Source: Bdellovibrio sp. (GTDB lineage Bacteria; Bdellovibrionota; Bacteriovoracia; Bacteriovoracales; Bacteriovoracaceae). From it: DNA of 49,612 bases. Shown here in pieces: positions 34,906-49,612 of this stretch. The stretch lies in assembly GCA_016187935.1 (NCBI GenBank), contig JACPIU010000002.1, positions 68,956 through 118,567 on the forward strand, written 5' to 3'. The notes below the pieces were generated by a model. The model was given only the letters and a program-made list of their open reading frames with translations, did no database searches and was not told the origin of the DNA. A program made the translations under genes and the position numbers. Within the stretch, counting starts at the first letter, position 1. The number at the start of each line of letters is the position of its first letter.

Positions 34906-35024
34906 TTTACTCTGGGTCTGATCTAACGCAAGGTGTTTCCCATTAATCATTGTGAGGCCTGAATTTTCCCTTTTCACTTTGAGATAGATATTGAAAATTA
35001 TTCAAAGTTTCTAAAGATGGAGTC

Positions 35025-35053
35025 TTGACGTATGTCATAGGCGACTTCATATT
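35025..35053 (+). promoter_or_regulatory. sigma-70-type promoter for the small basic protein
   Basis: TTGACG (35025-35030) and CATATT (35048-35053) are separated by 17 nt. The expected start near 35060 lies about 11 nt before a strong AAGGAG. Position and spacing support real expression of the gene at 35082. Confidence 0.45.
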
Positions 35054-35081
35054 AAATCAATCATCTCAGAAAGGAGAATTT

Positions 35082-35228: not shown

Positions 35229-35355
35229 TTTCATTCCCAACCCATTTCTTAAGCGCAATGATTTTTGTCCGAGAGTAAGATTTTGTAAGTATACACGTCC
35301 ATTGAATGTCTCCTATATTTTTCTTCGTCTTTTTTAGGATGAGAGTGGAGGACAT

Positions 35356-36120
35356 ATGCAAGGGATGCAGAAGAAATTTTACAGTCTTGGACTCCAAGAA
35401 GTGGTGTTGGGAATGGTGTTGCTGGCGGGACAAGGAGTTTTCGCCGCAGATAAAACGATTTGCGGTCCCAGCGATGATCGCGATCTCTCTGACAATGTTA
35501 AAATTGGGCGAGTTCTAGAGCGCGGTGCGCCAGCAGGATGTACAATTACTTTGATTGGACGCTCCTGTGTTCTTTCTGCTGGGCATTGTATCGGAACTTT
35601 TCATGTGGCCGAGTTCAATACACCTCCTTCTAGCAATGGGCGAATTGCCCATCCGGCCGAAAAAGACATCTATGAAGTTGATCGTGCCTCTATCGTCTCT
35701 AAAAATAATGGTCAAGGTGATGATTTTGCTGTGTTCCGTTTGAAGGCCAACAACATCACAGGCCAGTACGCTGGAGAAGTGCAAGGCCACTACAACGTCT
35801 CTTTTGATCCACCTCGAGTTGGGGCAATGGTAAGAATTACTGGCTATGGTGCTGACCGCTCACAAGGAGACAGAAACTATGCCCAGCAATCACACGTAGG
35901 TCCCATAACCCAGATTTCTGATACTATTCTCTACCATCAGGTTGATACCATGGGAGGAAATAGTGGAAGTACCGTTATCCTGGAAGAGGAGCAAGAAATC
36001 ATCGGTATCCATACCCATGGTGGTTGCAGCAGCTATTCCGGTTCAAATGCTTCGACCTTAATCAGTGCTCATAGCGCCCTCAAACAGGCGATTCAGAATT
36101 GTTTGAAGCTAGACAACTAG
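35356..36120 (+). CDS. secreted trypsin-like serine protease (S1)
   Basis: The 254-residue protein has a signal peptide ('LGLQEVVLGMVLLAGQGVFA') and a chymotrypsin-fold domain. The catalytic His is in 'CVLSAGHCIG', the Asp in 'QGDDFAVFRLK' and the Ser in 'DTMGGNSGSTVI'. Cys pairs around the His ('SCVLSAGHC') fit a disulfide. It resembles V8/glutamyl endopeptidase-type bacterial S1 proteases; specificity cannot be read. ATG 35356 follows GGAGG at four bases. It overlaps the convergent gene by 12 nt. Confidence 0.88.
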   Translation: MQGMQKKFYSLGLQEVVLGMVLLAGQGVFAADKTICGPSDDRDLSDNVKIGRVLERGAPAGCTITLIGRSCVLSAGHCIGTFHVAEFNTPPSSNGRIAHPAEKDIYEVDRASIVSKNNGQGDDFAVFRLKANNITGQYAGEVQGHYNVSFDPPRVGAMVRITGYGADRSQGDRNYAQQSHVGPITQISDTILYHQVDTMGGNSGSTVILEEEQEIIGIHTHGGCSSYSGSNASTLISAHSALKQAIQNCLKLDN

Positions 36121-36690
36121 TGCTCGAGCGATGATAGTCGAAAGAAAAATAAAGACATAAAATCCGATTCCTCTCAAGGCCAGCCACCACCAGTTGCCTA
36201 ATTTAAAGGCGGCCACAGTTGTGAGCATGGCATGAAGATAAAGTGCCGCACCCATTGTCCAAGTGTTTGTGATTAATATTTGGCGAAACCAATTCTCGCG
36301 AAGGAGCATTTTAATTTGCTCCTCCATCTGGGCCGGGATCAGACCATGATATTTTTCCATCATAAGAAGGATGTAGGGCCGATCCATAAAATAGGAAATG
36401 ATAAGGACGCTGGCAAAAACTGAACTCAAGATTGCTGGTTGGAGTTTTAAGAAAATCGGGGATTGTTTTTTATAGGAAATCAAGGTCATGATGACAACCG
36501 AAACCAGGGTAAAGACTGTTACTGAATCTAATTCATTAAAACTAACAAAAGTCCAAACAGCTTCGACAATGGCCATGACTATGGTTGTTATCAAGGCGGC
36601 CTTCATGGAGAGAAAAGCATCAACAATCACAAAGGCCAGAAGTGGCAGAAGTCCAAGAAAGAGAGAAAAAAAAGTAGAATTGTCGCCCAT
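36109..36690 (-). CDS. multi-pass membrane protein, IspZ/YciB septation-protein-like
   Basis: This 193-residue protein has five to six membrane helices and the layout of the YciB/IspZ family: 'LGLLPLLAFVIVDAFLSMKAALITTIVMAIVEAVWTF' resembles the family's N-terminus. 'KLQPAILSSVFASVLIISYFMDRP' resembles the central K-x-x-P-A-I/V segment, and a 'GAALYLHAML' stretch lies near the third helix pair. In E. coli the protein is an inner-membrane factor of cell envelope and division. Sequence similarity is partial, so the family is likely but not proven. The 3' end overlaps the trypsin-like gene. Confidence 0.55.
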   Translation of the reverse strand: MGDNSTFFSLFLGLLPLLAFVIVDAFLSMKAALITTIVMAIVEAVWTFVSFNELDSVTVFTLVSVVIMTLISYKKQSPIFLKLQPAILSSVFASVLIISYFMDRPYILLMMEKYHGLIPAQMEEQIKMLLRENWFRQILITNTWTMGAALYLHAMLTTVAAFKLGNWWWLALRGIGFYVFIFLSTIIARALVV

Positions 36691-36730
36691 TGCATAATTT
36701 TACAACGAGGATGACAACAAAGACCACAAT

Positions 36731-36759
36731 CTGACAAAATAATGCGATTAGTTTTATAT
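36731..36759 (+). promoter_or_regulatory. sigma-70-type promoter for the DUF4156 lipoprotein
   Basis: CTGACA (36731-36736) and TTATAT (36754-36759) with 17-nt spacing. The likely transcription start is only a few bases before the GGAG ribosome site at 36772, giving a very short leader. Confidence 0.4.
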
Positions 36760-36781
36760 ATTTTTACAGTTGGAGAAAATC

Positions 36782-37081
36782 ATGAAGTTTTTGTTAATGG
36801 TCTTGCTTCTTGTTTCTTTTGTTCATTGTGCTTCTAATCCCAATCAACTTACTGAAGATGGGAAAAAGGTTCAAGTCATACCTGGAAAAAAACCCATGGA
36901 AGGTTGTGAAGTGGTGGACAAAGTTATTGGTGAAAATGATATTGGAAGCATCCAAGTTTCCACCAATAAAGTTCGCAATGCCGCTGCCAAAAAGGGCGCC
37001 AATTATGTTCTAATCGAAGATGAAATACTCAATGGCGGTAAGGCCAAAGTTATTGCCACTGCTTATACTTGCACAGAATAG
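36782..37081 (+). CDS. DUF4156-like small lipoprotein
   Basis: The 99-residue protein has a lipobox ('LLLVSFVHCAS'). Its mature part 'CEVVDKVIGENDIGSIQVSTNKVRNAAAKKGANYVLIE' matches the DUF4156 layout (G-C-x-V/L at start, then V-R-x-A-A-x-K-G-A-N-Y-V). Such proteins are small envelope lipoproteins of unknown role, found across proteobacteria. ATG 36782 has GGAG at six bases; an in-frame TTG at 36770 overlaps that site. Confidence 0.8.
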   Translation: MKFLLMVLLLVSFVHCASNPNQLTEDGKKVQVIPGKKPMEGCEVVDKVIGENDIGSIQVSTNKVRNAAAKKGANYVLIEDEILNGGKAKVIATAYTCTE

Positions 37082-37105
37082 TAGTATTGGAAGGCGGCTT
37101 CAGGA

Positions 37106-37600
37106 TTAATTTCCGGGGGCCGCTGACTGACATTGCTGCCGAATTGTTTTTAGCATTTCCACATCATCACGCTCTAAAATAGCTCTGATTTGTGCAGTCA
37201 GTTCGGGATAGTTTCGGATAACATTGACAAAACGGCATAGGATTCCCCTGGCCTCAGGGGTTACGGCCAGGTCGACTTGAAAGCCTGTTACATTATATTT
37301 GGTTTCATAAATGATTGGGGCGATCAACTCTTTATATTTTAGAGTCACTCTTTCCCCCATACTTTTGGACAGTTCGGCGCCCAATTTACTGTCTCGAACG
37401 GAAAAATTCCAAGTGAGATTATCGCCGCTGCCCAGGTCGAGGGTTCCTTCATAAGTTTTGAGTACCCATCCCTTTTGAGACAGCCTTACCAGGCGGCCGC
37501 TGCGTGAACCAGAGGAATAAGGATAGCTAAGAACCGCCCACACAACCAAAAGTGATAGTGCGAATAGGAAAAAGAGTCCAAAAATAATCTTGCGTTTCAT
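37106..37600 (-). CDS. conserved-type single-pass membrane protein, function unknown
   Basis: From ATG 37600, 164 residues: an N-terminal membrane helix ('IIFGLFFLFALSLLVVWAVLSY') and an extracytoplasmic domain with 'YSSGSRSGRLVRLSQKGWVLKTYEGTLDLG' and 'NLTWNFSVRDSKLGAELSKSMG'. I recall this motif order from a widespread uncharacterised family sometimes misnamed after 6-phosphogluconate dehydrogenase; no enzyme signature is present. The ORF is open upstream to 37813, but that part overlaps the divergent transporter gene and lacks a helix. Two cysteines lie near the C-terminus. No partner is evident. Confidence 0.65.
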   Translation of the reverse strand: MKRKIIFGLFFLFALSLLVVWAVLSYPYSSGSRSGRLVRLSQKGWVLKTYEGTLDLGSGDNLTWNFSVRDSKLGAELSKSMGERVTLKYKELIAPIIYETKYNVTGFQVDLAVTPEARGILCRFVNVIRNYPELTAQIRAILERDDVEMLKTIRQQCQSAAPGN

Positions 37601-37677
37601 GCAATTGAGTTTATGAGGTCCCGGTTTAAGTGACAAGGGCCTTCCTCTTTGATAAGAACATTCCACGGAGAGTTTTG

Positions 37678-38814
37678 ATGGTGAATACCACTTGTGATGA
37701 AGCGAAGACGCCTGAAAAGAAAGACCCTGAAAAGCCTGAGACGAAAGAAAAAGTCGATGACGAAGGAGCATCTCGTGGCACCGGTGTAGGTCTGGATAGG
37801 AGGCTGATGACAAATATCACCGAACCCAGTTTGGCGATATTGGCGTTTGTTTGCGTAACCTTTATTTTGGTCTATACAAAAACCATTGCCGTACCTTTTG
37901 TTCTGGCCTTTTTCCTTTATAGTGCTTTGGTACCACTTTTAAATTGGTCTGTAGTCAAATTTAAATTACCGAGACTTGTGGTGATCGGTATTTTTGTGGT
38001 GATGGGCCCGCTTATTCTTTTGGGTTTGATTTTACCCTTGATCAAATCGGTGGAAAGTGTTTTTGGGGACATTAATCTCTATCGCGAACGGCTGACTAGT
38101 TTGGCCAGCTCATTTAGCGTTTGGATTACTCATAAGATACCTCTTCTGTCCCTGGTGAAGTGGAAGTCTTCCAACTTTTGGAGCAAAATTCCTTACGAAA
38201 ATCTCGCTCATTATGTAACCGATTTCTTTATAAACTTTTTTGTTTACATCACCCTCATGTTTATCTTTCTCTTTTTCATGATTATTGGCGGAACTGGTAT
38301 CGGTCCGAGAGAAGGATTGATTCCCGAAATACAGCAGAAGATTGCCCATTATCTGCTCAACAAATTTATGATTTCATTTGGGGTCGGCCTTATCAGTTTT
38401 ATCCTCTATGTTTCATTAAATCTTGATCTTTCATTCATGTTTGGGGCCCTGGCCTTTATCTTGAATTTCATTCCCAATGTGGGAGGTATTATCGCCAGCG
38501 CTCTCCCCATTCCCGTCGTGCTGCTTCAATATGGTGTAGGATGGCAGTTCTACCTGGTCTTGATTTTTAACATGATCTTTCAATTTCTCGTGGGGAACAT
38601 TATTGAACCGAAAGTTTTGGGTGATTCCATGGAGTTGCATCCCATTGTCATTCTGGTTTTCTTGATGTTCTGGGGATTGGTGTGGGGGCCGATTGGAATG
38701 TTCCTGGCAGTCCCGATTACTGCAATTATGCGAATAGTATTCGAGCGCATTGACGTCACTCGTCCGGTGGCCGAACTCATGTCGGGCCGTATTCCGCCAT
38801 CCTTAAAGCGTTAA
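37678..38814 (+). CDS. AI-2E-family transporter (PerM/TqsA-type permease)
   Basis: The 378-residue protein has about eight membrane helices ('LAILAFVCVTFILVYTKTIAVPFVLAFFLYSAL', 'RLVVIGIFVVMGPLILLGLILPLI', 'GALAFILNFIPNVGGIIASALPIPVVLLQYG', 'VGNIIEPKVLGDSMELHPIVILVFLMFWG'). 'FIPNVGGIIAS' and 'EPKVLGDSMELHP' are the family's conserved segments. Members export small molecules or act in ion exchange; the substrate here is unknown. ATG 37678 follows CGGAGAG; the earlier in-frame start at 37630 lacks a good site. It starts divergently to the gene at 37106-37600. Its stop overlaps the GNAT gene stop. Confidence 0.88.
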   Translation: MVNTTCDEAKTPEKKDPEKPETKEKVDDEGASRGTGVGLDRRLMTNITEPSLAILAFVCVTFILVYTKTIAVPFVLAFFLYSALVPLLNWSVVKFKLPRLVVIGIFVVMGPLILLGLILPLIKSVESVFGDINLYRERLTSLASSFSVWITHKIPLLSLVKWKSSNFWSKIPYENLAHYVTDFFINFFVYITLMFIFLFFMIIGGTGIGPREGLIPEIQQKIAHYLLNKFMISFGVGLISFILYVSLNLDLSFMFGALAFILNFIPNVGGIIASALPIPVVLLQYGVGWQFYLVLIFNMIFQFLVGNIIEPKVLGDSMELHPIVILVFLMFWGLVWGPIGMFLAVPITAIMRIVFERIDVTRPVAELMSGRIPPSLKR

Positions 38815-39536
38815 GAGAAAATTTCAATTTCAAAAACAGTTTGAAGGCCGAGTTTCTTATACAGGCCTTCGGCATAAGAGCCTTTTAAAACTTGCAAGGT
38901 AATGGTTTTTTGGGGGTTGCTTTTTGAAGAGGATACAATTTCATTCATAATGGCCGTACTTATTCCTTGTTTTCTGGCTTCAAGCAGAGTGGTTACGGCA
39001 TAGATGCCTAAGGTGCGGTCATTTTTTATCGTAAGAGCAACTCCTGATGGAGTGTTGTTGATTTTGGCGACGTAAAAAGTCTGAGTTGCATTATGAAGAT
39101 TGGCAATATTAAATTTACGCATCCATGGATACCATTGGTTAAAGACTTCCGGGGTAGAGCAAAATCCTTTTCCTTGCACCAGACTGAACTCTTCCAAATG
39201 CGCCAGGGATGATTTCTTTTCAATAAGCACGTGGGGGTTAATTGAAGGAGTGTTTAAGCGCTTTGGACTTAAAACCATATAGCTTAGAGAGTGCGTGTAT
39301 TTTTTGTTTTGCTTGAGCCAGTTTGTGTTTTGCTCCCCCGCCCAGGGGGTCTTATAGAAAGTCGTAAAATCATTCACCAAATCACCTAAGGGCGAGGGGC
39401 CAACGAAAACAAAGGTGAACTCCTTTTTTTCGCTTTTTACCAACCAGTGATCACCATCGGGACTCGCTTGGACCACACCACGATGAGTACTTAAGAATTC
39501 CAGATGGTTTTGCAGCAATTCTTGATTATTTTTCAT
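38811..39536 (-). CDS. GNAT-family N-acetyltransferase
   Basis: The 241-residue protein has a non-conserved N-terminal half. The C-terminal GNAT fold shows 'FYVAKINNTPSGVALTIKNDRTLGIYAVTTLLEARKQGISTAIMNEIV' (motif A with R-x-x-G-I-S/T for acetyl-CoA) and 'YKKLGLQTVFEIEIF'. The acceptor is unknown. It is divergent from the ArsR-type gene across a region containing a perfect palindrome, so it is probably a target of that regulator. The 3' end shares its stop with the convergent transporter gene (TTAA). Confidence 0.8.
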   Translation of the reverse strand: MKNNQELLQNHLEFLSTHRGVVQASPDGDHWLVKSEKKEFTFVFVGPSPLGDLVNDFTTFYKTPWAGEQNTNWLKQNKKYTHSLSYMVLSPKRLNTPSINPHVLIEKKSSLAHLEEFSLVQGKGFCSTPEVFNQWYPWMRKFNIANLHNATQTFYVAKINNTPSGVALTIKNDRTLGIYAVTTLLEARKQGISTAIMNEIVSSSKSNPQKTITLQVLKGSYAEGLYKKLGLQTVFEIEIFS

Positions 39537-39552
39537 TTGACATAAACCTCAT

Positions 39553-39574
39553 TAGTTAGATATATATCTAACTA
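39553..39574. promoter_or_regulatory. perfect 22-bp palindromic operator between GNAT and ArsR-type genes
   Basis: TAGTTAGATAT (39553-39563) is followed at once by its exact reverse complement (39564-39574). The last base is the A of the ArsR-type gene's ATG, and the other end lies 16 nt before the GNAT start. A bound repressor would block the ArsR-type gene's start and the GNAT promoter together. TATATAT within the palindrome may be part of a -10. No ribosome site precedes the ArsR-type ATG. Confidence 0.75.
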
Positions 39575-40767
39575 TGGATGTTGTCAAAAATAATATTGGA
39601 AAGGCAGTAGAATTTACGGAAGGACTTCGTTTTGAGTTTTTCTACGCCCTGTCTCATATTACCGATAACAATTCGAGTCTTCACCAGCAATGGAAGAGAG
39701 AGTGCTTAAGGAAGTTGCCTAAGAATTTTTACACCAATTTCGAACAGTTGGGCTCTTCTCATTTATTATGGCCGATTTTTGCCACTTTAGTACCTGAACT
39801 TAAGTCGAATTGCTCTTATGAAGAGTTGTTGAAAAGTATTCAAGAGACAGATTTGAAGATACTCCAAAGAAAAGTCTTGCTTGGATTTATTCATGATGAA
39901 CCTGGCGTTAATTTTTGCTTGGAGCGAAAACTCACCTTGAAAGAGACTATCGCCCGATCCAAAAGTGAGAAGCGAGAGTGGTTAATCCATGTCGGGCTTT
40001 ATCCTTATTCGGAAAGTTCGGCCCTAGTGCAGGCCATGGAATTCCTGATCACTCATCCCTCAAAATTCAAGAAAATTCTCTTGCAAGAGATGGATATCTT
40101 TTGGAGTGCCTGTTTTAAGCATACGTGGAAATTACTTTTGAGATCGTTGCAAAAATCGGCGGCTGAATTACAGACTGCCTATAGCGAACAAAATGATTTA
40201 ACCGTCATTTTTGACAAATCTAACGTCAAGGCCATTTACAATGAATCCAAAAAGCAGATTGAGGCCTTGCGCGGTGGATACACTGTAAAGTTGAAAGAAA
40301 TCAAAAAATGTTATTTCATTCCCTCGGCCTTTAACCAGGTCGGATGGTGGAATTCTCTTGAGGATCAAAATGGTGATAAATTGGTTTTTTTTCCTTATTT
40401 CGACCCGGTACTTAACATTGATTTGGCCATCGTGGAAGATCACAAAAACAGGAATATGGACCCTGATCCTTTTTTGATTTTTAAATCTCTCGGAGATCCC
40501 ACCCGTTTTGCCATGATCAAAATGATTGCTGAGCATCCAATGTCCTCAACAAATATTTCCCGCAAGTTAAGTTTAAGCAAGGCCACTGTTTCTCATCATG
40601 TTTCTTTGTTAAGACAGGCCGGTTTGCTTGAGGAAAATTATTCAGACGGCCAAGTCATGCTTGGAGTGAAGCAAGAAACCTTTGAAAAAATTTCAGAGAT
40701 AACATGCAGTTATTTTAAAATTAATAAACTCAAACCAGGAGAGTTGTATGGTGGTAAAAGCCTCTAA
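39574..40767 (+). CDS. ArsR-family transcriptional regulator with long N-terminal domain
   Basis: This 397-residue protein has a C-terminal ArsR winged helix (about 300-375): 'FKSLGDPTRFAMIKMIAEHPMSSTNISRKLSLSKATVSHHVSLLRQAGLLEE'. The N-terminal ~290 residues are helical, begin 'GLRFEFFYALSHI' and recall the DUF5937-type sensors fused to ArsR domains in other phyla. There is no CxC metal site in the HTH. The start codon abuts the palindromic operator, so autorepression is likely. The gene overlaps the TRASH-type gene by 20 bases, making one operon. Confidence 0.8.
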   Translation: MDVVKNNIGKAVEFTEGLRFEFFYALSHITDNNSSLHQQWKRECLRKLPKNFYTNFEQLGSSHLLWPIFATLVPELKSNCSYEELLKSIQETDLKILQRKVLLGFIHDEPGVNFCLERKLTLKETIARSKSEKREWLIHVGLYPYSESSALVQAMEFLITHPSKFKKILLQEMDIFWSACFKHTWKLLLRSLQKSAAELQTAYSEQNDLTVIFDKSNVKAIYNESKKQIEALRGGYTVKLKEIKKCYFIPSAFNQVGWWNSLEDQNGDKLVFFPYFDPVLNIDLAIVEDHKNRNMDPDPFLIFKSLGDPTRFAMIKMIAEHPMSSTNISRKLSLSKATVSHHVSLLRQAGLLEENYSDGQVMLGVKQETFEKISEITCSYFKINKLKPGELYGGKSL

Positions 40768-40945
40768 TCCCAGGAAGAAAACATTTTGTGCTTGCTGCCC
40801 CAAGTGGGAAATCAAAAGGCCAGAGCAATGTTCAAACACCAAAACGTACAAGGCCAAAAAATACTATTTTTGCACCAAAAAATGCAAAGATCGTTTTGAA
40901 AAATCTCCCGAAAAATTTATGGCGATGGAATCTGCTTGGCCGTAG
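40748..40945 (+). CDS. small TRASH/YHS-like zinc-ribbon metal-binding protein
   Basis: The 65-residue protein has cysteines at 14, 16, 17, 28, 42 and 46. The C-terminal block 'YKAKKYYFCTKKCKDRFEKSPEKF' is the hallmark of TRASH/YHS modules (Y-x-F-C-x-x-x-C-x-x-x-F-x-x-x-P-x-x-F), which bind Cu, Hg or other heavy metals in chaperones and resistance proteins. ATG 40748 is preceded by GGAGAG, and it lies inside the end of the ArsR-type gene, so it is coupled to it. The 3' end overlaps the convergent cNMP gene by 29 nt. Confidence 0.78.
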   Translation: MVVKASNPRKKTFCACCPKWEIKRPEQCSNTKTYKAKKYYFCTKKCKDRFEKSPEKFMAMESAWP

Positions 40946-41384
40946 TCAGGTTTTCGATGAGATCATTGGCCTTTTTTAGCCTTTTCGTTACCAAACGAGT
41001 GACATTGAGTACCAGTAAGGAAAAGATTTCAGGGCGCTTGGTATAAAAGGAGTAAAATTCTTCGTAGGTGATAACCAGGACATCGGTAGGGGCACTAGCG
41101 ATGACATGGGCGGTTCGCCGAGTTTCGTTGATAAGTACCAGTTCGCCGAAAATGTCACCTTTCGAAAGCTTGGCAAGAGTTTTACGCTCTTTTAGATGAT
41201 CGACCACCACTTCGGCCTCACCCGAAAGGATGATACAGATTTCGGTCCCCATATCGCCTTGCTTGATGATGGACTGGCCTGGTACATAAGAGGCCACAAA
41301 ACAGCGTCTGATGATATCTTCCACCTCGTTATCATAGAGTTCATGAAACAGGGAACAGCCCCTGACAAGATCGGCCATGGACAT
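40917..41384 (-). CDS. cyclic-nucleotide-binding domain protein without DNA-binding domain
   Basis: This 155-residue protein is one CAP-type cNMP-binding domain: 'VPGQSIIKQGDMGTEICIILSGEAEVVV', then the phosphate-binding cassette 'GDIFGELVLINETRRTAHVIASAPTDVLVI', with the P-E-L/V and R-R-T/S pattern. A short C-terminal helix follows ('LLVLNVTRLVTKRLKKAND'). There is no helix-turn-helix, so it is a sensor or effector rather than a CRP regulator. It begins one base after the stop of the MotA-like gene (ATG 41384, AAGG upstream), and with that gene and the MotB-like gene forms an operon. Confidence 0.82.
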   Translation of the reverse strand: MSMADLVRGCSLFHELYDNEVEDIIRRCFVASYVPGQSIIKQGDMGTEICIILSGEAEVVVDHLKERKTLAKLSKGDIFGELVLINETRRTAHVIASAPTDVLVITYEEFYSFYTKRPEIFSLLVLNVTRLVTKRLKKANDLIENLTTAKQIPSP

Positions 41385-41385
41385 A

Positions 41386-42306
41386 CTAGGCGCCTTTTTG
41401 ATCCGATTTACGATTTCCAGCATCCAAACGTTTTTTGATTTCTTGCACTTCGTGGATGAGTTCCGGCAATGATTTTTTCATGAGACCTTCGAAAGATTGG
41501 TCATCATGCAATGATAACCACAAATTTTCAAAGCAGTTCTCCACCATCTTAAAGGTTTGTTGGCGCATGCCACGAACCGGAGCGATGGTGTTGAGAAGTG
41601 TCATGACGAGCGAGCAGATAATTCCTGCGATAGATGTTTCCATAGAGAAACTTACACCTAAAACGAAACGAGTAAGGATTTCTCCGGATTTTTCAAGATT
41701 TTGAAAATCGATTTTGGCGATCTCCGGTAAGGCCATACAAATGCCAATAAATGTGCCGAAGATACCAAGAACGACAAACAGTCCGGGTAAAACGTCGAGC
41801 ATGCGAGAAATGGGTCCTATCGGTAGCAGACCGAGCATCTTGGTCCAGCCATCATCACGGTCCAAGATTCTCTCCGTTAGATCGGTGAAATTGGGAGGAA
41901 ACTGGGATTTGAAGGAGCCGGCTTCGGATCTGATGGAGTGGTAGAGACTGCGTTCACCACTCACGAAATCACGCATGCTGACCACGTTTTGCGCCTTCAT
42001 GCGAAGTCCCACCAATTTTGCCAGGCGTCCTTGACGATGACGGACCGCACGGGTGGGAAGTTTTTCCCTGACTTTTTCAAGTAGCTGCCCGAGATAGGCT
42101 TCGACATCATGCAGTTTTTGCTCCGAAGGGAGCTTGGCATCGAGGGCCATAATCTTCTGCAATTCATTGGAGAAAGAAGAAAAGTAGGCATTGTTACGTT
42201 TGCTGGCCCCCCAACCAAGCCAGCGGCATCCTAATGCCAGCACTAAAACCACGCCCATGAATTCGATTAAGTAATTGGAAAAGAAGAAAAACAACAGGTC
42301 CAACAT
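41386..42306 (-). CDS. MotA/TolQ/ExbB-type proton-channel protein
   Basis: The 306-residue protein has an N-terminal helix ('LLFFFFSNYLIEFMGVVLVLAL') and a cytoplasmic loop of about 140 charged residues. Two further helices near 172-195 and 212-238 ('VLPGLFVVLGIFGTFIGICMALPEI', 'LGVSFSMETSIAGIICSLVMTLLN') hold the MotA/TolQ signature G-x-x-G-T-F-x-G. A ~65-residue C-terminal tail ends the protein. The layout is that of ExbB/TolQ/ZorA channel subunits. It follows the MotB-like gene by three bases and precedes the cNMP gene by one, so the three should act together. Confidence 0.82.
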   Translation of the reverse strand: MLDLLFFFFSNYLIEFMGVVLVLALGCRWLGWGASKRNNAYFSSFSNELQKIMALDAKLPSEQKLHDVEAYLGQLLEKVREKLPTRAVRHRQGRLAKLVGLRMKAQNVVSMRDFVSGERSLYHSIRSEAGSFKSQFPPNFTDLTERILDRDDGWTKMLGLLPIGPISRMLDVLPGLFVVLGIFGTFIGICMALPEIAKIDFQNLEKSGEILTRFVLGVSFSMETSIAGIICSLVMTLLNTIAPVRGMRQQTFKMVENCFENLWLSLHDDQSFEGLMKKSLPELIHEVQEIKKRLDAGNRKSDQKGA

Positions 42307-42309
42307 GGA

Positions 42310-44079
42310 TCACTCCTGGTTCAATGATTCGAGAGTTGTTAATAGTCCTTCATCATGATCTTTGAGCGTAAAGACGATCTCTACTCGTCGTGATTGGCGG
42401 CAGTCATATTCACCGCAGCCAAGGTCTTTAATTACACTGGCCGGTGTGCGACCAGATTTGACTCCCGGATGAATAATGGGTTCTGAAAAACTTCTTCCTC
42501 CGGCCGATACCAGCAAGCGGAATTCATCCTTGTTTTCGAATTGGCCGAATTCTTCGCTAAAGATATACTTCACAATTTCTCGTGCGCGATCAGTACTGAG
42601 AGTGAGGTTATAAGTATAAGCGTCTTGCTCTCCGCCTAATGGATCGACGAATGTTTTCTTGTATTCCGGAGAAGCGTGGCCTACGAAGGCAACACTTTCG
42701 ATTTTGCTGGCAAGACGGACATCTCCCAGAAGGGCCTGGGTATAACGGGGAACTACACGTTTCAAGGCCTCTTTGGCCTCCGGGCGCAAGATAGAGGAGT
42801 CGCGTTCAAAGGTAAAATCGCCCTCCATGCGCATGATCAGTTTGCCGGTCTCTTTGTCCACGATGACATTGACGCCACTGTTGGCCAATTTATCAGCAAT
42901 TCGGTTGGCTATGCGGCCGCGCAGACTTTTTCTGAAATCGGCCAAACCCTTGCCCAGTTTACCAAGTCTGTCCCTGAATTCTCGGTTCTGTGCAATAAGC
43001 TCGCGCTTATTTTCCGCGCAAGTTTTTTCTTGTTGATCAAGTTTTACCAACTTCGCGGTCAGATCCGTGAGTTCTTTTTGTTGGCGACTATTATTTTGCT
43101 GCAGACCCTGATTATCCTTTTCCAGTTGCCCTACGCGGCCTCCAAGTTCTTTGGCCCTGCCAGTGGCCTCTCCCAACCTGCTTTCCAGTCCTCCGCTGCG
43201 GAACTTCTCATGGCCCAATGACCGCTCTAATGCTGTAATCCGTCCCCCCATCTGTGCCTCTTTTTGGGCGTGGGCATATTCGGCCTGCATGGCCTCTCGC
43301 CCTTTCTTTTCTAAATTGCCCACCATACTTTGCAGCCATTCAATGTCTTTTTTATAGGTCGCATTTCTGCGTTCATTGGTCTTCGCTTCTTGAAAGAATT
43401 TGTCCCTTTCCATTTGGGTCGTCTTGGCCATTTTTTGGGTTTCCGCCAGTTTGGCCTTGGTTTGCTCGAGTTCTTTTTGCTGCCGGTTTTTGGCCTCGAC
43501 CATGCGTTGTTTTGAAGTCTCGAGTTCCTGCTCCAATTTGGTGCGGGCATCTTGGACCTTCTTCATGGCCACCTGAATCTCTTTCATCTCACGTTCATTC
43601 TGTTTGCGTTCTTGTTCCATCTGCCGAACCAGTGCCAACGTGCTGTGAAATTCTTGATCTTTTTTTGCCAATGTCACATTCAAGTTCTTAATGACGACTT
43701 CTTTGGTCTCCTGGTCTTTCAAAAGCTTTTCCACCACCTGCCGATGATCTTGCATTTTTTTGGAAAATTGATTGAGTTCAACCATCTTGGTAGTAATGAT
43801 GTCCTGATATTGCTGCATCTCTTGAACAGACTGTTCAAGTTTCTGTCTTCGTTTATCATTCTCTTTGATGACTTTGTCAGGGACTTGGCCTTTGACGAAT
43901 TCTTCATGTTCTTTTTTCTGTTGGACGGTTTGCAGGGTATTGATACCTGAACGCAGAAGCGCGAAGACAAACATCACCAGAAAGATGACGGCCATCGTGG
44001 TGAACATATCACTATATGACGTCCAGACGCTACCATCCTCTTTTTCCGAGGATTTATCTTGAGAATCGTGATCGGCCAT
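42310..44079 (-). CDS. MotB-like/OmpA-domain protein with long coiled coil
   Basis: From ATG 44079 (AGGAG at six bases) the protein has 589 residues. The N-terminus is short and acidic. One membrane helix at about 25-42 ('MFTTMAVIFLVMFVFALL') follows Asp24, which sits where MotB has its proton-carrying aspartate. A coiled coil of about 320 residues (roughly 50-375; heptads rich in Lys, Glu, Gln) comes next. A C-terminal OmpA/MotB peptidoglycan-binding-type domain ends it (about 410-589, 'FTFERDSSILRPEAKEAL', 'VAFVGHAS', 'LSTDRAREIVKYIF', 'RRVEIVF'). An ordinary MotB has about 300 residues without such a coil. It is first in the operon with the MotA-like and cNMP genes. Confidence 0.82.
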   Translation of the reverse strand: MADHDSQDKSSEKEDGSVWTSYSDMFTTMAVIFLVMFVFALLRSGINTLQTVQQKKEHEEFVKGQVPDKVIKENDKRRQKLEQSVQEMQQYQDIITTKMVELNQFSKKMQDHRQVVEKLLKDQETKEVVIKNLNVTLAKKDQEFHSTLALVRQMEQERKQNEREMKEIQVAMKKVQDARTKLEQELETSKQRMVEAKNRQQKELEQTKAKLAETQKMAKTTQMERDKFFQEAKTNERRNATYKKDIEWLQSMVGNLEKKGREAMQAEYAHAQKEAQMGGRITALERSLGHEKFRSGGLESRLGEATGRAKELGGRVGQLEKDNQGLQQNNSRQQKELTDLTAKLVKLDQQEKTCAENKRELIAQNREFRDRLGKLGKGLADFRKSLRGRIANRIADKLANSGVNVIVDKETGKLIMRMEGDFTFERDSSILRPEAKEALKRVVPRYTQALLGDVRLASKIESVAFVGHASPEYKKTFVDPLGGEQDAYTYNLTLSTDRAREIVKYIFSEEFGQFENKDEFRLLVSAGGRSFSEPIIHPGVKSGRTPASVIKDLGCGEYDCRQSRRVEIVFTLKDHDEGLLTTLESLNQE

Positions 44080-44213
44080 AGAAACTCCTGGACCACTATG
44101 GGAAACAAAACATCGTCGATAACAATCGGACATTTTTCAAACAACTTGAGAATTTGAAGCATCAAAATTACCCAATATTGTTTTCTTTATTTTTTGGTTA
44201 TATAAATTATCTT

Positions 44214-44924
44214 ATGAAAATGCTTTTGTTGTTCTTTTGCTTCTTGGTCATGCCTTCAGCTATTGCCAATGTCGTGCTTGAACCGTATGCCGGTTATATT
44301 GTTGATGGAGATGCTAAGGCCAATAAAGACGTCAGCGGCAGCAATAAAGATTACACGAACTCTTATTCAGGTGTGACCGTTGGGGGGAGGATTGGCGTTC
44401 GTTATCAATATTTGATTTTTGGCGTCGGTTATAGCATGGCCAAATTTGATATGCGCTATAACTCCACTGCGGATAATGGTAATACTGAGACTTTTCACGA
44501 TCAATATCGGGCCAAGTATAAATCTCTTTTTGGAGGATTTACCTTCTCTTCGGCGTTTAAATTAATCGGTAACTATTATCAGGAAGTATCTTTTGAAGAC
44601 CGCGATCCTGTGCTGTTGCAAAATGGTTCCGAAGTTCTAGGAGGGGCCGAAGGGGCAACTCAGACCGGTGATAAATTCTATGGCCATGGATATGGCGTAT
44701 TGCTTTCGTATACAGGTTATAAAGGTCTTGGGATTGATATCGAATATCGCAAGCTGAAGATGAGCAAATTCAAAGATGTCAGAAACGAAAACTATGGAGA
44801 TGTTTCCAACACCATGGCCATCGGGAGTGGTGCCGTTTTTACTAAATATTCTTCCACTGAAATTGTTCTTACCCTGGGTTTTTCTTTCGAGTTTTTTTCT
44901 TGGAGAGAAGGGCCGAGACATTAG
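44214..44924 (+). CDS. outer-membrane beta-barrel protein, function unknown
   Basis: The 236-residue protein has a signal peptide ('MKMLLLFFCFLVMPSAIANVV') and barrel-type strands with aromatic girdles ('LEPYAGYIVDGD', 'SYSGVTVGGRIGVRYQYLIFGVGYSMAKFDMRY', 'GYGVLLSYTGYKGLGIDIEYRKL', 'STEIVLTLGFSFEFF'). It looks like an 8-strand OmpX/OmpW-size barrel. ATG 44214 was chosen because the signal peptide starts there; the in-frame start at 44154 lies inside the divergent promoter region. It separates two minus-strand operons and itself runs on the plus strand. Confidence 0.7.
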   Translation: MKMLLLFFCFLVMPSAIANVVLEPYAGYIVDGDAKANKDVSGSNKDYTNSYSGVTVGGRIGVRYQYLIFGVGYSMAKFDMRYNSTADNGNTETFHDQYRAKYKSLFGGFTFSSAFKLIGNYYQEVSFEDRDPVLLQNGSEVLGGAEGATQTGDKFYGHGYGVLLSYTGYKGLGIDIEYRKLKMSKFKDVRNENYGDVSNTMAIGSGAVFTKYSSTEIVLTLGFSFEFFSWREGPRH

Positions 44925-44930
44925 GGGGGA

Positions 44931-44960
44931 ATATCCTCAAATATCCTAAGATATCCTAAG
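44931..44960. repeat. three tandem decamers (second array)
   Basis: ATATCCTCAA, ATATCCTAAG and ATATCCTAAG follow exactly, then ATGTC. Read on the minus strand the unit is CTTAGGATAT, where ATCTTAGGAT is almost palindromic. The array fills the gap between the barrel stop and the kinase stop and covers the kinase TAG. It parallels the array at 11875-11904. Confidence 0.6.
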
Positions 44961-46017
44961 ATGTCTTTCGTTTTCCATGAAAGGTAAGCATATTGGCATT
45001 ATCGCGTGAGATCGCATCGCGAATCAAGGCCTGATGAATTTGGCGCCGGAGATGGTCGCGCGATTCTTGAATTTCAGTTTTGAAGTGCTCTTGCAGGAAT
45101 TTTTCCAGATCACTTTGGCCAACGTGATTCTGTTGATCGAGACCTTTCAAGGCCTTGACCACGTCTTGCATGCAACTGTAGCGACGTCGGTGTTGTGCCG
45201 CCAACATTTTGAGAATGATGGTTTGGGTTTGTTCAAAAAGAGATGGATCATAATCTGAAGGGGGTGGAATTTCACATTTGTCTATTTTACGAATGATCTC
45301 GATGGTATTTTCCCCCGGAAAAAGACGTTTCCCCGTGGTCATCTCCCAAAAAACTATCCCGAGAGCAAATTGATCGATGCGGTGATCATAATATTTTCCC
45401 CGAATATACTCTGGGGCCATGTAAGATGGTTTTCCTTTCAAAGTTCCGGCTTGGGTCTTTTCTCCCGATTCGTGCAAGCGCGCCATGCCAAAGTCGATAA
45501 CCTTGATGTGACCATCAAAAGTGACCATGATGTTATGAGGCGAGACATCCCGATGAATCAGGCCTTGTTTTTTTTGGGCGAATACCTGCGCACCACTTAA
45601 TTCGTGGGCATATCCCAATCCTTTGGCAGCTTCGGTAATGATATGAGCAATAAGGGCATGGGGAAGTTTGATATTTTTTTTGGCCAATTTTTCTTGCAGA
45701 ATTTTAAGATTAAAACCTTCTACATATTCCATGACACAATAGAGTTGTTCCTGCTCTTCGCCGGAAGCATAACATTGAGCGATATTCGGGTGTGATAAAC
45801 GAAAGGCCGTTTGAACTTCGGAGAGGAACATCTTTTTAAATTCAGTTTTGGCCGAGTACTTACGCTTTACCACTTTGATGGTGACAACTCGATGAAGCGG
45901 TATGGCCCCTTTGCCATTTTCCAAGGTTGTAGTTTGACCTTGAAGGGCACGATAAATACTTCCCATGCCACCTTGGGCGAGGTGATCAATAATGATGTAA
46001 TTTTCAAAATGCAGCAT
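44956..46017 (-). CDS. serine/threonine protein kinase
   Basis: The 353-residue protein is a cytoplasmic Hanks-type kinase. It has a glycine loop 'LAQGGMGSIYRA', Lys48 in 'VVTIKVV', catalytic loop His155-Arg156-Asp157 'HRDVSPHNIMV' with Asn162, DFG at 175-177 ('VIDFGMAR'), and an APE-like 'YMAPEYIRG'. HRDVSPHN is common in myxobacterial and related kinases. There is no C-terminal membrane helix or sensor; a ~60-residue helical tail follows. It is last in an operon with the HD-GYP-like and unknown genes, 5 bases behind the former, so these probably act in one pathway. Substrates are unknown. Confidence 0.9.
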   Translation of the reverse strand: MLHFENYIIIDHLAQGGMGSIYRALQGQTTTLENGKGAIPLHRVVTIKVVKRKYSAKTEFKKMFLSEVQTAFRLSHPNIAQCYASGEEQEQLYCVMEYVEGFNLKILQEKLAKKNIKLPHALIAHIITEAAKGLGYAHELSGAQVFAQKKQGLIHRDVSPHNIMVTFDGHIKVIDFGMARLHESGEKTQAGTLKGKPSYMAPEYIRGKYYDHRIDQFALGIVFWEMTTGKRLFPGENTIEIIRKIDKCEIPPPSDYDPSLFEQTQTIILKMLAAQHRRRYSCMQDVVKALKGLDQQNHVGQSDLEKFLQEHFKTEIQESRDHLRRQIHQALIRDAISRDNANMLTFHGKRKTS

Positions 46018-46022
46018 AGGCT

Positions 46023-47012
46023 TTAGGCCATTTTGCCTTGGTCAAACACTGAAGCCAAGGCCTCTGAGGCCTTTCGGAATACGCCGCTTACAAATTGATT
46101 TTTAATTAATTCAACCACAGTTCGGCATCGGTCGGCATGGAGAGCTTCCCGATAGGTTTTGTCAAACATTTGGTCGACGAAGTAGTGTGCCACAATATAG
46201 ATGGCCGTGAGTTGGGAGATACGTTGATAACTAATACCCTTGGGAAAGCCACCTCCACTTGGCATTTCATGATGTTGCTCCACGATCGTGAGAGTTTCTT
46301 GAGAGAAAAACTTAGATTCCTTGGCCAGCAAATGGGCGGTATTGAGAGGATGAAAGGTAATTTTTTTAGTCAGATTCTCTTTGGCCAGACCGCTATCCTT
46401 TAAAAGATCAAAATCTTCCGGTAAAAGTTCGACATCACAAAGCATCGCGGCCAAGGCGACTTTTTCTTTGACGGCATCATTGGCCCAATTGAATTGATCA
46501 ACCATGAGACAAGCTACTTGTGAGGTCAAGAGAGCATAAGTAAATTCGCGGCTGCATTTTTTTTTAAATTCCGAGAACTTCCCCAACAAATTAGTCATAT
46601 GGATGGTTTTAACCGTTCCCTGGGTGAGGGCCTGCGCAACTGCAAGAGTGTCTTCCTCTGTGTTTTCGCGCAGGATAAGAGATTTTAGCACGTCATGAGC
46701 GCCGGCCAATAGCGAGATTTCGGGTGGTTTAGTTGGTTCGGCAACCGCAATGGAGAGGCGAGCGGTGATGGCCTTTCGCACGGAAGTCGTAAAGTAGTCA
46801 TAGTCAGCGAGAGTCAAGTAAACTTCCGTGACACCACGATTTTTATATTTTTCTAAGATACTTTCGAAATTATCTTCCTTTTGAGAGACTTTGATGAATT
46901 TCTCATCTGAAAGACGCAGGTAAAGTTCCAGCTGATATTCCGCTCCATAAGAGATTAAGGCATCAATGCGAATTTTTCGAAAGGCATCTGCGGTTGGCTT
47001 ATGATCACTCAT
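46023..47012 (-). CDS. HD-GYP-like domain protein with degenerate HD site
   Basis: In this 329-residue protein the N-terminal ~90 residues form a separate domain ('SYGAEYQLELYLRLSDEKFIKVSQ', 'TEVYLTLADYDYF'). The C-terminal half resembles HD-GYP: 'FHPLNTAHLLAKESKFFSQETLTIVEQHHEM' (HHE at 247-249), then 'GGGFPKGI' (253-260) in place of GYP, then 'AIYIVAHYFVDQM'. The first metal dyad, normally H-D, reads C192-D193 ('MLCDVELLP'), so catalysis on c-di-GMP is doubtful and a receptor role may apply. It overlaps the upstream unknown gene by four bases and precedes the kinase gene by five. Confidence 0.72.
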   Translation of the reverse strand: MSDHKPTADAFRKIRIDALISYGAEYQLELYLRLSDEKFIKVSQKEDNFESILEKYKNRGVTEVYLTLADYDYFTTSVRKAITARLSIAVAEPTKPPEISLLAGAHDVLKSLILRENTEEDTLAVAQALTQGTVKTIHMTNLLGKFSEFKKKCSREFTYALLTSQVACLMVDQFNWANDAVKEKVALAAMLCDVELLPEDFDLLKDSGLAKENLTKKITFHPLNTAHLLAKESKFFSQETLTIVEQHHEMPSGGGFPKGISYQRISQLTAIYIVAHYFVDQMFDKTYREALHADRCRTVVELIKNQFVSGVFRKASEALASVFDQGKMA

Positions 47013-47890
47013 ACATGTCGTGATCGTTGCCAGTCGATAATGGGAGAAAAAATAGTATCTATTTGAGAGCCGTCATAGGGAATGAGGTTCATGTCTCCGT
47101 CAAGCAGTTCGAGATTTGAGGTTACGAAAATCACATCGGCATAGGGGTCGAGAGTTTTGTAATGGCGGATGAAGGCCATTTCTTCCATGAGATTATCGAG
47201 AATCAACATGACACAAAGAACCGAACCACTTCCTCGTCTCACGGGAATTCGAGGTGCCATGAAGGACAATTCTTGAATCTTTGCTTTGAGATAGGTTTCG
47301 CGCAAATTCCTATCTTCCGGCGCCCTGTCGTTCGTGATCAGGTGAAAAACAATTTCGATGCCAAAGCGCGCCATATCTTCATGGGAGATGGCAAGTAAGG
47401 CCAGGGCCTCGTCAGTGGTGGTCACCAATTTTTTGCTCACGGGGTCCACAATCGGGCAGAAGATAATTTCTTCCGTGATGTATTCGTGCCCTTCATAAGG
47501 TGAGATTTTTATTGGATTGAGAAAGATAACAGTGGGTTGCTTGCTATTTTGAAAACGCGTGATCAAGTCGCCGAGCATGAACTGTCGGGCAATTTGTCCG
47601 TGCAATCCGGCCTTACAATCGGTCTTATAATCGTTTCTGGTTAGCTCTGTCAGTGTGTGGGCACGAAGAATGCGAAAAATTAATTCATCTTTGGTAAAGG
47701 CGGCGATGAAAGAGTGGCCGCTGGAATCATTCCATACGATGGGGGCGCCTTGCTCATTCACCGGGCACAAAACGAGATCATAATGACCGGGCATTCCCTG
47801 AGGGCCAGCGGGATTTTGAGCAATCGGCCAATTGCCTGCCAGTGATTTCTTCCAGAATTCTAAATTCGCATGAAATGCCATGGCCCCCAT
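47009..47890 (-). CDS. unrecognised cytoplasmic protein, operon with HD-GYP and kinase
   Basis: About 293 residues without signal peptide or clear membrane helix. Visible features are 'HYDLVLCPVNEQGAPIVWNDSSGHSFIAAFTKDELIF', 'AGLHGQIARQFMLGDLITRFQN', 'DEALALLAISHEDMARFGIEIVFHLI', and a C-terminal 'VLCVMLILDNLMEEMAFIRHYKTLDPYADVIFVTSN', which has the alternating hydrophobic pattern of a Rossmann-like or receiver-like fold without a recognisable phospho-acceptor set. I cannot name it. Start ATG 47890 follows GGGGGGA; ATG 47881 is possible. It is first in the operon and overlaps the next gene by four bases. Confidence 0.6.
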   Translation of the reverse strand: MGAMAFHANLEFWKKSLAGNWPIAQNPAGPQGMPGHYDLVLCPVNEQGAPIVWNDSSGHSFIAAFTKDELIFRILRAHTLTELTRNDYKTDCKAGLHGQIARQFMLGDLITRFQNSKQPTVIFLNPIKISPYEGHEYITEEIIFCPIVDPVSKKLVTTTDEALALLAISHEDMARFGIEIVFHLITNDRAPEDRNLRETYLKAKIQELSFMAPRIPVRRGSGSVLCVMLILDNLMEEMAFIRHYKTLDPYADVIFVTSNLELLDGDMNLIPYDGSQIDTIFSPIIDWQRSRHV

Positions 47891-47956
47891 GATTCCCCCC
47901 ACGATTAGTATGCAGCTTTGATACCATAATAACTATCTGTTGGGTAAGAGGGCGGA

Positions 47957-48036
47957 GGAGGGTGCCAGGTGACTTATGGTGGCGATAGTGCGTCATGCAA
48001 TAACGCATCACGGCAACATCTCGCTTGGCACCCTCC
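47957..48036. repeat. 80-nt element with 11-bp perfect terminal inverted repeat
   Basis: GGAGGGTGCCA (47957-47967) is mirrored exactly by TGGCACCCTCC (48026-48036). Inside are TGCGT (47989-47993) and ACGCA (48003-48007), which can form a second stem. GGTGCC recurs three times nearby on one strand or the other. It sits just downstream of the minus-strand cysteine-rich gene and before the unknown gene, and may be a REP-type element or a 3'-UTR structure. Confidence 0.5.
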
Positions 48037-48046
48037 CTCCGGCACC

Positions 48047-48628
48047 TTAAAGCATGTTTCCACCGGGATGTTCGGTGAGAGGTAAATCTTCAGTAGAGAG
48101 GGTAGGGCAAGTGGCCTGGGCCTCCAGGTAGAGTCCTTCGGTTTGAAAAACATCTTGAATACACTGATAAGTAATGGCAAAGGCGTGGATTTTGGAGCAT
48201 TTGTTTAGGATATTTTTTTGGATACAGTCAGTGCGGGCGGCCAGCCCTGAAGGAGAGGCCACCGCTGTAATGCCTGCGGGGAAACGTCCAAGAATTTTAT
48301 CATACACAAATAACTCAAATTTTGTGGTGAGAAGAATGAGAAAGTATCGTTCGAGGTTTTCTTTGGAGAGAGAAATCACGGCGCAGCGATCGAGTGGTCC
48401 CAGAATTTCGACGGTGTGAGCATTTTTCGGAATTTTAAGGTCAAGGCAATTGCAGAAATCCACGTATTCGTCGAAATTGCCACCAGTCAGTCCTTGGCCA
48501 AGCGGATGTGAGAGTATTTCCCCCATACATTGTTCGGTAAATAAATTTTCGCCAAGTGATTTTGCGGATGCACTTGTTGTCTGGGTTAGGATAAGAATCA
48601 AAATGGCCAGGGCCAGAATTGGCCGCAT
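48047..48628 (-). CDS. secreted cysteine-rich protein, function unknown
   Basis: This 193-residue protein has a signal peptide (MRPILALAILILILTQTTSASA) and eight cysteines in the mature part ('EQCMGEIL', 'VDFCNCLDL', 'LDRCAVISL', 'RTDCIQKN', 'NKCSKI', 'YQCIQDVF', 'ATCPTL'), which could form four disulfides. It is therefore likely periplasmic or secreted. No family was recognised. ATG 48628 has GGAG nearby. It is followed by a structured element and then, in the same direction, the three-gene kinase operon. Confidence 0.7.
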   Translation of the reverse strand: MRPILALAILILILTQTTSASAKSLGENLFTEQCMGEILSHPLGQGLTGGNFDEYVDFCNCLDLKIPKNAHTVEILGPLDRCAVISLSKENLERYFLILLTTKFELFVYDKILGRFPAGITAVASPSGLAARTDCIQKNILNKCSKIHAFAITYQCIQDVFQTEGLYLEAQATCPTLSTEDLPLTEHPGGNML

Positions 48629-49129
48629 AAAATCTCCTGGAAACTATTATACCAGAAATCGCTGGAAGCCCCTATTTTCCCTATGAGACGGCGTTTTTTG
48701 CCATGTAATGAGTATGGTAAGTATGGCATCTCTGCCAAAGATTGTTGTCAGGCCTCCTGGCCTGCCACCCTACGGGGCGCTTCGCGCACATAATTGGCCA
48801 TCATGTGTACTGAATTAGGCACTTTGACAGTAATTAAGGACTTAGTGATTCTGACAGCAGGGGGCAGCAATTAAGCCCAAATCCGTCATTAGACACATCG
48901 CACTTCCGCTGCGAAGTTAATTTCACAGAACTTTCCGACGATATTTAGCTGCGCTTGTCTTCGACCGACATTACCGCCAGATTATGTGGGGAAATATTTT
49001 TTCTTCAAAAACCAAACGGTGCCACACGCCCAGTGGTAGCTACAATGCATTATTATTCTTTAATTCAGAAAGTACATTGCATGCATAAATACCGCCACCG
49101 GGTTATCAGATATCGTCTGTCTGCGAACT
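48629..49129. other. 500-nt gap without a convincing gene
   Basis: The gap holds a perfect hairpin (CAGGCC at 48749-48754, GGCCTG at 48759-48764, loop TCCT), the IS21-like end described next, and a weak stem ACTTC/GAAGT (near 48904-48919). A plus-strand frame at 48955-49239 looks like a shadow: it has no ribosome site and runs across the HNH gene antisense. Confidence 0.5.
48806..48875 (+). mobile_element. possible solo end of an IS21-family element
   Basis: The stretch starts TGTACTGAATTAGG and then has TGACAGTAATTAAG (48825-48838) and GGGCAGCAATTAAG (48862-48875), matching at 11 of 14 positions, 37 nt apart. Multiple copies of a G-G/A-C-A-G-x-A-A-T-T-A-A block near a TG start are what I know from IS21-type ends. 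No istA/istB frame is in the window, so this is a remnant at best. Confidence 0.35.
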
Positions 49130-49612
49130 TCACCCAAGCGAAAAACAGGAAAATTTTTGATAGGCGAGTTTGTTATGCTCGGAACAAAGTATGCGCATGT
49201 TACTTTGCGCTGTTTCTCCGCAAATTGAGTGCGGTGTGATGTGGTCACACTGCAAGAATTGGAGACTCTCACAGCGAGTGCCATTGGCGCTCACAAACTC
49301 ACAGCGATATTGGGCCTTTTTTAGTAACTCTCGCCGCAAAACGACGCCAGCGCCTCTGGCGGAAGAAGATTGACGGACTTTGGTTTGCTCTCTTTTGGGT
49401 GCCGCAAATGTGGCCATAATTTTTTTAAAAGCATCGCGGTCTTTGGGCTCTTGCAAACGGGCCTTGGTGTCCTCCCATAACTGATAAGTTTCTTCATCGA
49501 CTTCAATTGTAATCACGCGCTTTTTTTTCGCCAGATTGAAGTACTCACGCAATTCTAACTCCGCAGCGGCAACGGATTTCCCGAGTGTCAAATTTAACGC
49601 CTCGACATTCTG
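49130..49612 (-). CDS. HNH endonuclease, 5' end outside window
   Basis: The frame is open to the window edge, so the N-terminus is missing. The visible 160 residues begin with 'LELREYFNLAKKKRVITIEVDEETYQLW'. They end in an HNH domain: 'QYRCEFVSANGTRCESLQFLQCDHITPHSICG', then 'NMRILCSEHNKLA'. The motif histidine is in 'CDHI', the asparagine in 'SNMRILC' and the last histidine in 'SEHN'; cysteines at both ends of the motif probably bind a structural metal. Proteins with this architecture are often multicopy in Bdellovibrionota. Role unknown (self-propagating or defence-linked nuclease both possible). Confidence 0.82.
   Translation of the reverse strand, partial: QNVEALNLTLGKSVAAAELELREYFNLAKKKRVITIEVDEETYQLWEDTKARLQEPKDRDAFKKIMATFAAPKREQTKVRQSSSARGAGVVLRRELLKKAQYRCEFVSANGTRCESLQFLQCDHITPHSICGETAQSNMRILCSEHNKLAYQKFSCFSLG

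Follow-up and report, generated by a model that had tools for sequence, protein, structure and literature searches.

The window analyzed here is a 49,612-nucleotide stretch of DNA from Bdellovibrio sp. (family Bacteriovoracaceae; NCBI GenBank assembly GCA_016187935.1, contig JACPIU010000002.1, positions 68,956 to 118,567 of the forward strand); the genome that it belongs to measures 4.4 Mb, and the contig is number 47. Its minus strand carries a run of three genes that encode, in the order of their reading, a protein of no recognized family, a degenerate HD-GYP protein resembling Bd1817, and a Hanks-type serine/threonine (Ser/Thr) kinase. The first gene (47009-47890) specifies 293 residues from an ATG start at 47890, with a GTG at 47902 as an alternative start; the second (46023-47012) encodes 329 residues comprising an N-terminal domain and an HD-GYP domain that is predicted to be non-catalytic, and the third (44956-46017) a soluble kinase of 353 residues. 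A preliminary description of this DNA had noted an overlap of four bases between the first two genes and a gap of five bases before the kinase gene, and both proved to be exact; the overlap is an ATGA at 47009-47012 and the gap spans 46018-46022. Searches of Pfam assigned the second protein to HD_5 (E 1.9e-7, above the cut-off) and the third to Pkinase (E 3e-42). The maximal 19-residue Kyte-Doolittle means of the three proteins were 1.61, 1.10, and 0.88, respectively, values that indicate no likely membrane helix; with no sufficiently hydrophobic stretch in any of them, the first protein, the HD-GYP-like protein, and the kinase are all probably cytoplasmic.

With a profile built from 30 relatives of the HD-GYP-like protein, the window sequence included, the best match in the PDB was Bd1817 of Bdellovibrio bacteriovorus (3TM8; E 8.9e-34, profile positions 11-284 to chain positions 21-291), and the alignment extended over both domains. 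Further matches were, in order, V-cGAP3 (5z7c), PmGH of Persephonella marina (4MCW), and DvhD of Desulfovibrio vulgaris (9RBZ and 9RC0), the last two entries being DvhD structures (PMC13090378). PmGH is an active tri-iron phosphodiesterase, and its residues D222, H250, H276, and H277 align with D193, H221, H247, and H248 of the HD-GYP-like protein. By analogy with the HD superfamily, we take this retained quartet to be the part of the PmGH metal centre that faces the G site. The equivalent of PmGH I294 is also kept. The HHExxDGxGYP loop reads HHEMPSGGGFP, with the HHE and glycines preserved, the Asp changed to Ser, and the GYP Tyr (Y285 of PmGH) changed to Phe (F256). The HHE, GGGFP, and Cys-Asp motifs of the preliminary description were thus located at residues 247-249, 253-257, and 192-193, respectively. 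The last of these replaces the His-Asp dyad, PmGH H221 being aligned with C192, and Cys-Asp is found in the orthologues of all three genomes of the genus; its codons, whose position was computed from the start of the gene (47012) and confirmed in the sequence, occupy 46434-46439 (TGT GAT on the gene strand, atcaca on the plus strand).

Other residues of the PmGH centre have been lost. D305 is replaced by H276, the catalytic K225 by L196, and D308 by V279, while H189 corresponds to Y159 when the alignment is anchored on same-genome paralogues and Bd1817, or to A160 with HMMER, which places it one residue off; neither is a His. Likewise, E185 is matched by R155, or by E156 in the other register, and the full set of seven to eight metal ligands is therefore incomplete. 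In PmGH, replacement of H189, H221, K225, or D308 by alanine essentially abolished activity (PMC4159591). Given that metal-binding and catalytic residues whose loss abolished or strongly reduced the activity of PmGH are absent and that the pattern of loss is conserved in relatives, the HD-GYP-like protein is predicted with high confidence to be non-catalytic, which upholds the inactive phosphodiesterase that had been proposed as one option for it. That it might still function as a phosphodiesterase with an altered metal site is very improbable; HHE and four residues that bind metal in PmGH do remain, but each of the four positions required there has been replaced. In PmGH, D222 forms a bridge from the G site to the M site, and E185 one from M to H; the complex of PmGH with cyclic di-GMP (c-di-GMP) was found with the G-site iron alone (PMC4159591).

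The equivalents of PmGH D222, H250, H276, and H277 were invariant in 30 of 30 sequences. These had been selected by their similarity to the window protein, a choice that favours the HHE region and leaves retention of D222 and H250 as the less biased part of this count. By comparison, the His equivalent to PmGH H221 has been lost from 22 of the 30, being replaced by Cys in 15, Arg in four, Val in two, and Ala in one. All 22 retain each member of the quartet, but PmGH H189 is kept in only two, D305 in five, and K225 and D308 in none; among the eight members with H221, seven also have H189. This disparity amounts to selective retention rather than decay, and on this residue pattern the window protein belongs to a conserved family of putative pseudo-phosphodiesterases in which Cys-for-His is the commonest form (15 of 22). 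A total of 13 HD-GYP-like matches were found in the window's genome and, of the 12 that were aligned (window protein included), the motif His occurs together with the catalytic Lys in only three (L105, L109, and L111).

The cysteines of this family provide the basis for one alternative view, namely that the Asp-His3 site holds a single iron or zinc, that Cys153 and Cys192 (at the positions of PmGH D183 and H221) respond to redox conditions, and that the kinase reports the outcome. Among the 22 members without H221, Cys153 is present in 19, Cys192 in 15, and both in 14. In the genome G031, moreover, the first gene stands beside msrA, which serves in methionine sulfoxide repair, with the kinase gene next, and two genomes from a different genus have an msrA-like gene two places away from the first gene. 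However, whether C153 matches D183 varies with the register of the alignment, HMMER placing it one residue off relative to PmGH, residue 192 is Arg in four and Val or Ala in three of the 22, and msrA does not occur in the window cluster. A metal or redox sensor of this kind is accordingly regarded as improbable.

A role for the HD-GYP-like protein as a receptor of c-di-GMP is plausible on sequence grounds. DvhD, a genuine precedent, is an inactive HD-GYP protein that lacks the metal ligands and yet binds c-di-GMP, and both its R650A replacement and its Y652A/R653A double replacement weaken stabilization by the ligand (PMC13090378). The residues K285-T-Y287-R288 of the window protein align with an R-S-Y-R of 9RBZ, which from its spacing we take to be R650-R653 of DvhD; residues at this place contact the base in both DvhD and PmGH. 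This K-x-Y-R is kept in all three orthologues encoded by the three-gene clusters, and its restriction to them favours binding by these proteins in particular. Hydrolysis is absent in DvhD, and the HD motif has been lost from both proteins, reading SQ in DvhD and CD in the window protein. The two differ in that DvhD, a membrane receptor, carries dCache and PAS domains and lacks HD and HH, whereas the soluble window protein retains the Asp-His3 residues, has GFP in its loop, and is encoded beside a kinase. The messenger c-di-GMP is probably made by the organism, since its genome carries three GGDEF genes and eight PilZ genes.

The kinase looks catalytically intact, as judged from its motifs: the G-loop, K48, E67, HRD (155-157), DFG (175-177), and APE (201-203) are all present. 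It is one of four kinase matches in the window's genome and differs from the longer kinase, mostly of approximately 600-760 residues, which occurs in nearly all genomes of the Bacteriovoracaceae (117 of 125 with a match whose E-value was 1e-60 or lower). The two types have all catalytic motifs in common, and the window kinase is 42% identical to the long paralogue of the same genome, but it lacks a C-terminal extension comparable in size to that of the long kinases. It constitutes a separate short type that grouped with the short kinases of G031, G034, and G140 (support 100/99) on long branches in a tree from which L173 and L178 were left out as duplicates of L191 and L193; the tree program issued a long-branch warning, and a common origin of the short kinases is therefore not claimed. 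Two HD-GYP relatives are encoded directly beside genes for phosphothreonine-binding FHA proteins, one on the same strand (L155:245-3164) and one in convergent orientation (L156:4219-7067), which hints at a further link to Ser/Thr phosphorylation.

The three genes occur in the same order and on the same strand in all three genomes of the genus. Orthologues from the two sister species are 88% and 81% identical to the window's first protein, 87% and 75% identical to its HD-GYP-like protein, and 85% and 78% identical to its kinase. Ratios of non-synonymous to synonymous substitution rates (dN/dS) were 0.035-0.066 for those pairs of the first two genes with unsaturated dS, and the corresponding ratios of proportions (pN/pS) were 0.10-0.19 where dS was saturated. 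All three genes are, judging by these values, under purifying selection. The low dN/dS together with high identity despite near-saturated synonymous sites argues that the genes have been maintained and, by the same token, that they are no artefact of reading frame. The preliminary description had looked for the genes to stay together in relatives, and this they do within the genus (3/3) and at none of 33 first-protein loci outside it. Considering all 36 first-protein loci, a relative of the HD-GYP-like protein was found at three and the kinase at four, counts that are lower bounds as several loci are cut by contig ends; the loci L077-L100 are named records of genomes that also appear under G designations and hence are not independent. 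The fourth kinase-bearing locus is that of G031, with msrA between the two genes, and in G140, of the same genus, the msrA-like gene and the kinase gene are preceded by a different gene. The complete trio is thus kept only in close relatives.

Such a distribution would also be expected if the three were neighbours without a shared function, whose adjacency in a single genus reflects nothing more than common descent. In other genera, the first gene is found with many different neighbours and the HD-GYP relatives with others again, and the first two genes are separated by 34 and 33 bases in the sister species; the four-base overlap is hence specific to the window species and constitutes weak evidence of coupling. 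On the other hand, order and strand are the same in three of three species despite the near-saturation of synonymous sites, the window has extra DNA on both sides of the trio and none inside it, and the first gene and a kinase gene are also close together in one other genus. Mere descent is consequently considered a poor explanation, with a chance slightly below that given to the redox sensor.

The first protein has the wider distribution. It was detected in 36 of 129 genomes of the Bacteriovoracaceae, and a profile search found it in 36 of 368 genomes of the phylum, all 36 belonging to this family and representing 15 of 181 genera. Records that it matched were mostly from Bacteriovoracaceae, Halobacteriovorax, and Bacteriovorax, the closest being Bdellovibrionales bacterium GWA2_49_15 and the isolate nzgw164. 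The protein is soluble and has neither a Pfam family nor an NCBIfam entry, and searches of Pfam, NCBIfam, and PHROGs revealed no convincing family; single weak Pfam matches to YQBQ-like (E 0.0005) and DUF6965 (E 0.001) in two of 25 members were shared by no others and taken as chance. Its structure was predicted with moderate confidence (mean predicted local distance difference test [pLDDT] 77) and the fold searches gave no convincing match. The best E-values were 0.07 against the PDB and 0.02 against viral structures, and the best VIA Z score was 4.6 over 85 residues; the Tic22 fold ranked first with Foldseek (E 0.07, TM-score 0.16-0.20) and reached Z 3.4-3.9 with VIA. P-loop, SAVED, and CARF chains that matched approximately residues 157-277 had VIA Z scores below 4 and were given no weight. 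A possible resemblance of the first half to SseB (PF07179) found no support, as hhalign comparisons with Escherichia coli SseB and with nine SseB sequences gave probabilities under 1 percent, and a search for PF07179 in the window's genome returned no match; an internal repeat was also tested for and received no support. Invariant residues in the first alignment were D149, L165, R214, G220, E236, E237, F240, Y244, F255, and S258, and the location of most of them between R214 and S258 suggests that the second half holds a putative binding or active site.

Recurring neighbours of the first gene are often signalling genes, with no single fixed partner. In three Halobacteriovorax genomes (L046, L049, and L050), it is followed after seven bases by a gene for a fusion of a PP2C phosphatase with a cyclic nucleotide (cNMP)-binding domain, the domains having been established in L049; genes resembling Tex and an ABC-type ATPase come after it. 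The first gene lies directly after a gene clustering with CheR methyltransferases at eight of the 36 loci (domain checked in L048 alone). Two genomes of one other genus have, after the first gene, a relative of its upstream neighbour in the window and then the gene that clusters with msrA.

This upstream gene (48047-48628, minus strand) encodes a predicted secreted protein of 193 residues. It adjoins the first gene within the genus and is on the other side of it in the two genomes just mentioned, and is only loosely associated with it. Between the two genes lies a strong hairpin (47953-48046; -51 kcal/mol, z -3.75) without a counterpart in the sister L077 by blastn; no second full copy was found in the genome, where one partial match of 27 bases was detected. 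On the opposite side of the trio, blastn with window positions 33001-49612 revealed that a 6.1 kb block (38815-44964) is absent between the kinase and a transporter in both sisters. Window positions 38814 and 44965 are separated by only 23 bases in L077; in L078 the distance is 22 bases, with the alignment picking up again at 45010. In both, the end of the kinase gene abuts the gene that occupies 37630-38814 in the window. The block encodes a GNAT protein, a helix-turn-helix (HTH) protein, a cNMP-binding protein, a ZorA-like MotA protein, a long coiled-coil MotB/OmpA protein, and a small barrel. Against anti-phage ZorA models, the MotA-like protein gave weak matches (best E 8e-9, far below the cut-off), and in the sisters it found 36-37% matches over approximately 140 residues and one 47% match over approximately 110. 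Because the block is missing even from the sister whose three trio genes have diverged further, its likely and simpler explanation is an insertion that occurred in the lineage of the window. The trio does lie on the same strand as this motor operon, as had been stated, but the implied link to the motor is rejected; both sisters keep the trio without the motor genes, and their proximity in the window is therefore probably accidental.

Given the gene order, the conservation in three species, the pattern of residue loss, and the intact kinase motifs, we tentatively propose, at somewhat less than an even chance, that the HD-GYP-like protein is a non-hydrolytic receptor of cyclic dinucleotides that controls the adjacent Hanks kinase; the ligand, the metal, the contact with the kinase, the coupling, and the part played by the first protein are what this proposal would add to those observations. 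The HD-GYP-like protein would bind c-di-GMP or cyclic GMP-AMP (cGAMP), perhaps with the help of a single metal ion, and leave it uncut; in its bound form it would interact differently with the kinase, whose gene starts after the five-base gap. The kinase would then relay the signal by phosphorylating Ser or Thr residues, with the first protein acting as its adaptor or substrate. Lending support to this receptor-kinase scheme are the phospho-signalling neighbours of the first gene elsewhere, viz. the PP2C-cNMP gene in three genomes and the short kinase one gene away in another.

A number of observations weigh against the scheme. Beyond the genus, an HD-GYP relative was present at none of 33 first-protein loci and the kinase at one; the earlier suggestion that the HD-GYP-like protein feeds the kinase thus stands on gene adjacency within the genus (3/3) and fails outside it. 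A kinase neighbour was sought in vain around 11 of 12 same-genome HD-GYP paralogues (the twelfth, C8:1185-1595, gave no hit) and around 16 relatives from outside the genus that were a hand-picked subset of matches. The structure prediction for the HD-GYP-like protein, made from three input sequences, reached a pLDDT of only 42. K-x-Y-R was found in none of the other 27 relatives, and the family at large may therefore not bind c-di-GMP. The GYP Tyr, lost here to GFP, contacts phosphate in PmGH, and the closest relative of solved structure, Bd1817, has a closed lid, no activity, and no known role (PMC4159591).

The last three of these points would equally fit a scaffold like Bd1817, with the HD-GYP-like protein binding no nucleotide but serving as a platform on which the kinase, or else the first protein, docks, and with any metal in the retained quartet being structural. 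Bd1817 resembles the window protein in its alignable N-terminal and HD-GYP domains (residues 21-291 of Bd1817) and in the loss of the GYP Tyr, and it is inactive on c-di-GMP (PMC4159591, PMC8177086). The two nevertheless differ in what they have lost: by alignment, Bd1817 has its HD motif intact but lacks the second of the two HHE histidines, whereas in the window protein HHE is intact and both the His of the HD motif and the one upstream are gone; several ligands of the binuclear iron centre of Bd1817 differ in the window sequence, and the last Asp is an Asn in Bd1817 (PMC8177086). Moreover, conservation of the metal quartet and of the G-x-GFP loop is far above that of most of the sequence, which suggests that the pocket is occupied, and the three trio orthologues do retain K-x-Y-R. 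A nucleotide-free scaffold is given a smaller but appreciable chance and is, with the metal or redox sensor, one of the main rivals of the preferred receptor-kinase scheme.

Non-catalytic HD-GYP proteins constitute a thinly studied class, of which the accessible literature describes Bd1817 and DvhD; literature searches, for which subscription papers were mostly out of reach, found no description of the Cys-Asp HD-GYP family, of the trio, or of the first protein. The family to which the window protein belongs (22 sequences) presents a different and consistent pattern of loss and, in one genus, a fixed kinase neighbour. It is conceivable, albeit with a small chance, that a widespread, hitherto undescribed branch of HD-GYP-like proteins in the Bacteriovoracaceae has lost catalysis and turned its Asp-His3 site and nearby pair of cysteines into a metal- or redox-gated switch, possibly one that binds dinucleotides, acting on a kinase with a lineage-specific partner. 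If so, a second-messenger or redox input would be converted directly into protein phosphorylation. The trio offers a single system in which to learn what a dead HD-GYP domain binds and whether, among relatives of predatory bacteria, Ser/Thr phosphorylation can directly take up a cyclic-dinucleotide signal.

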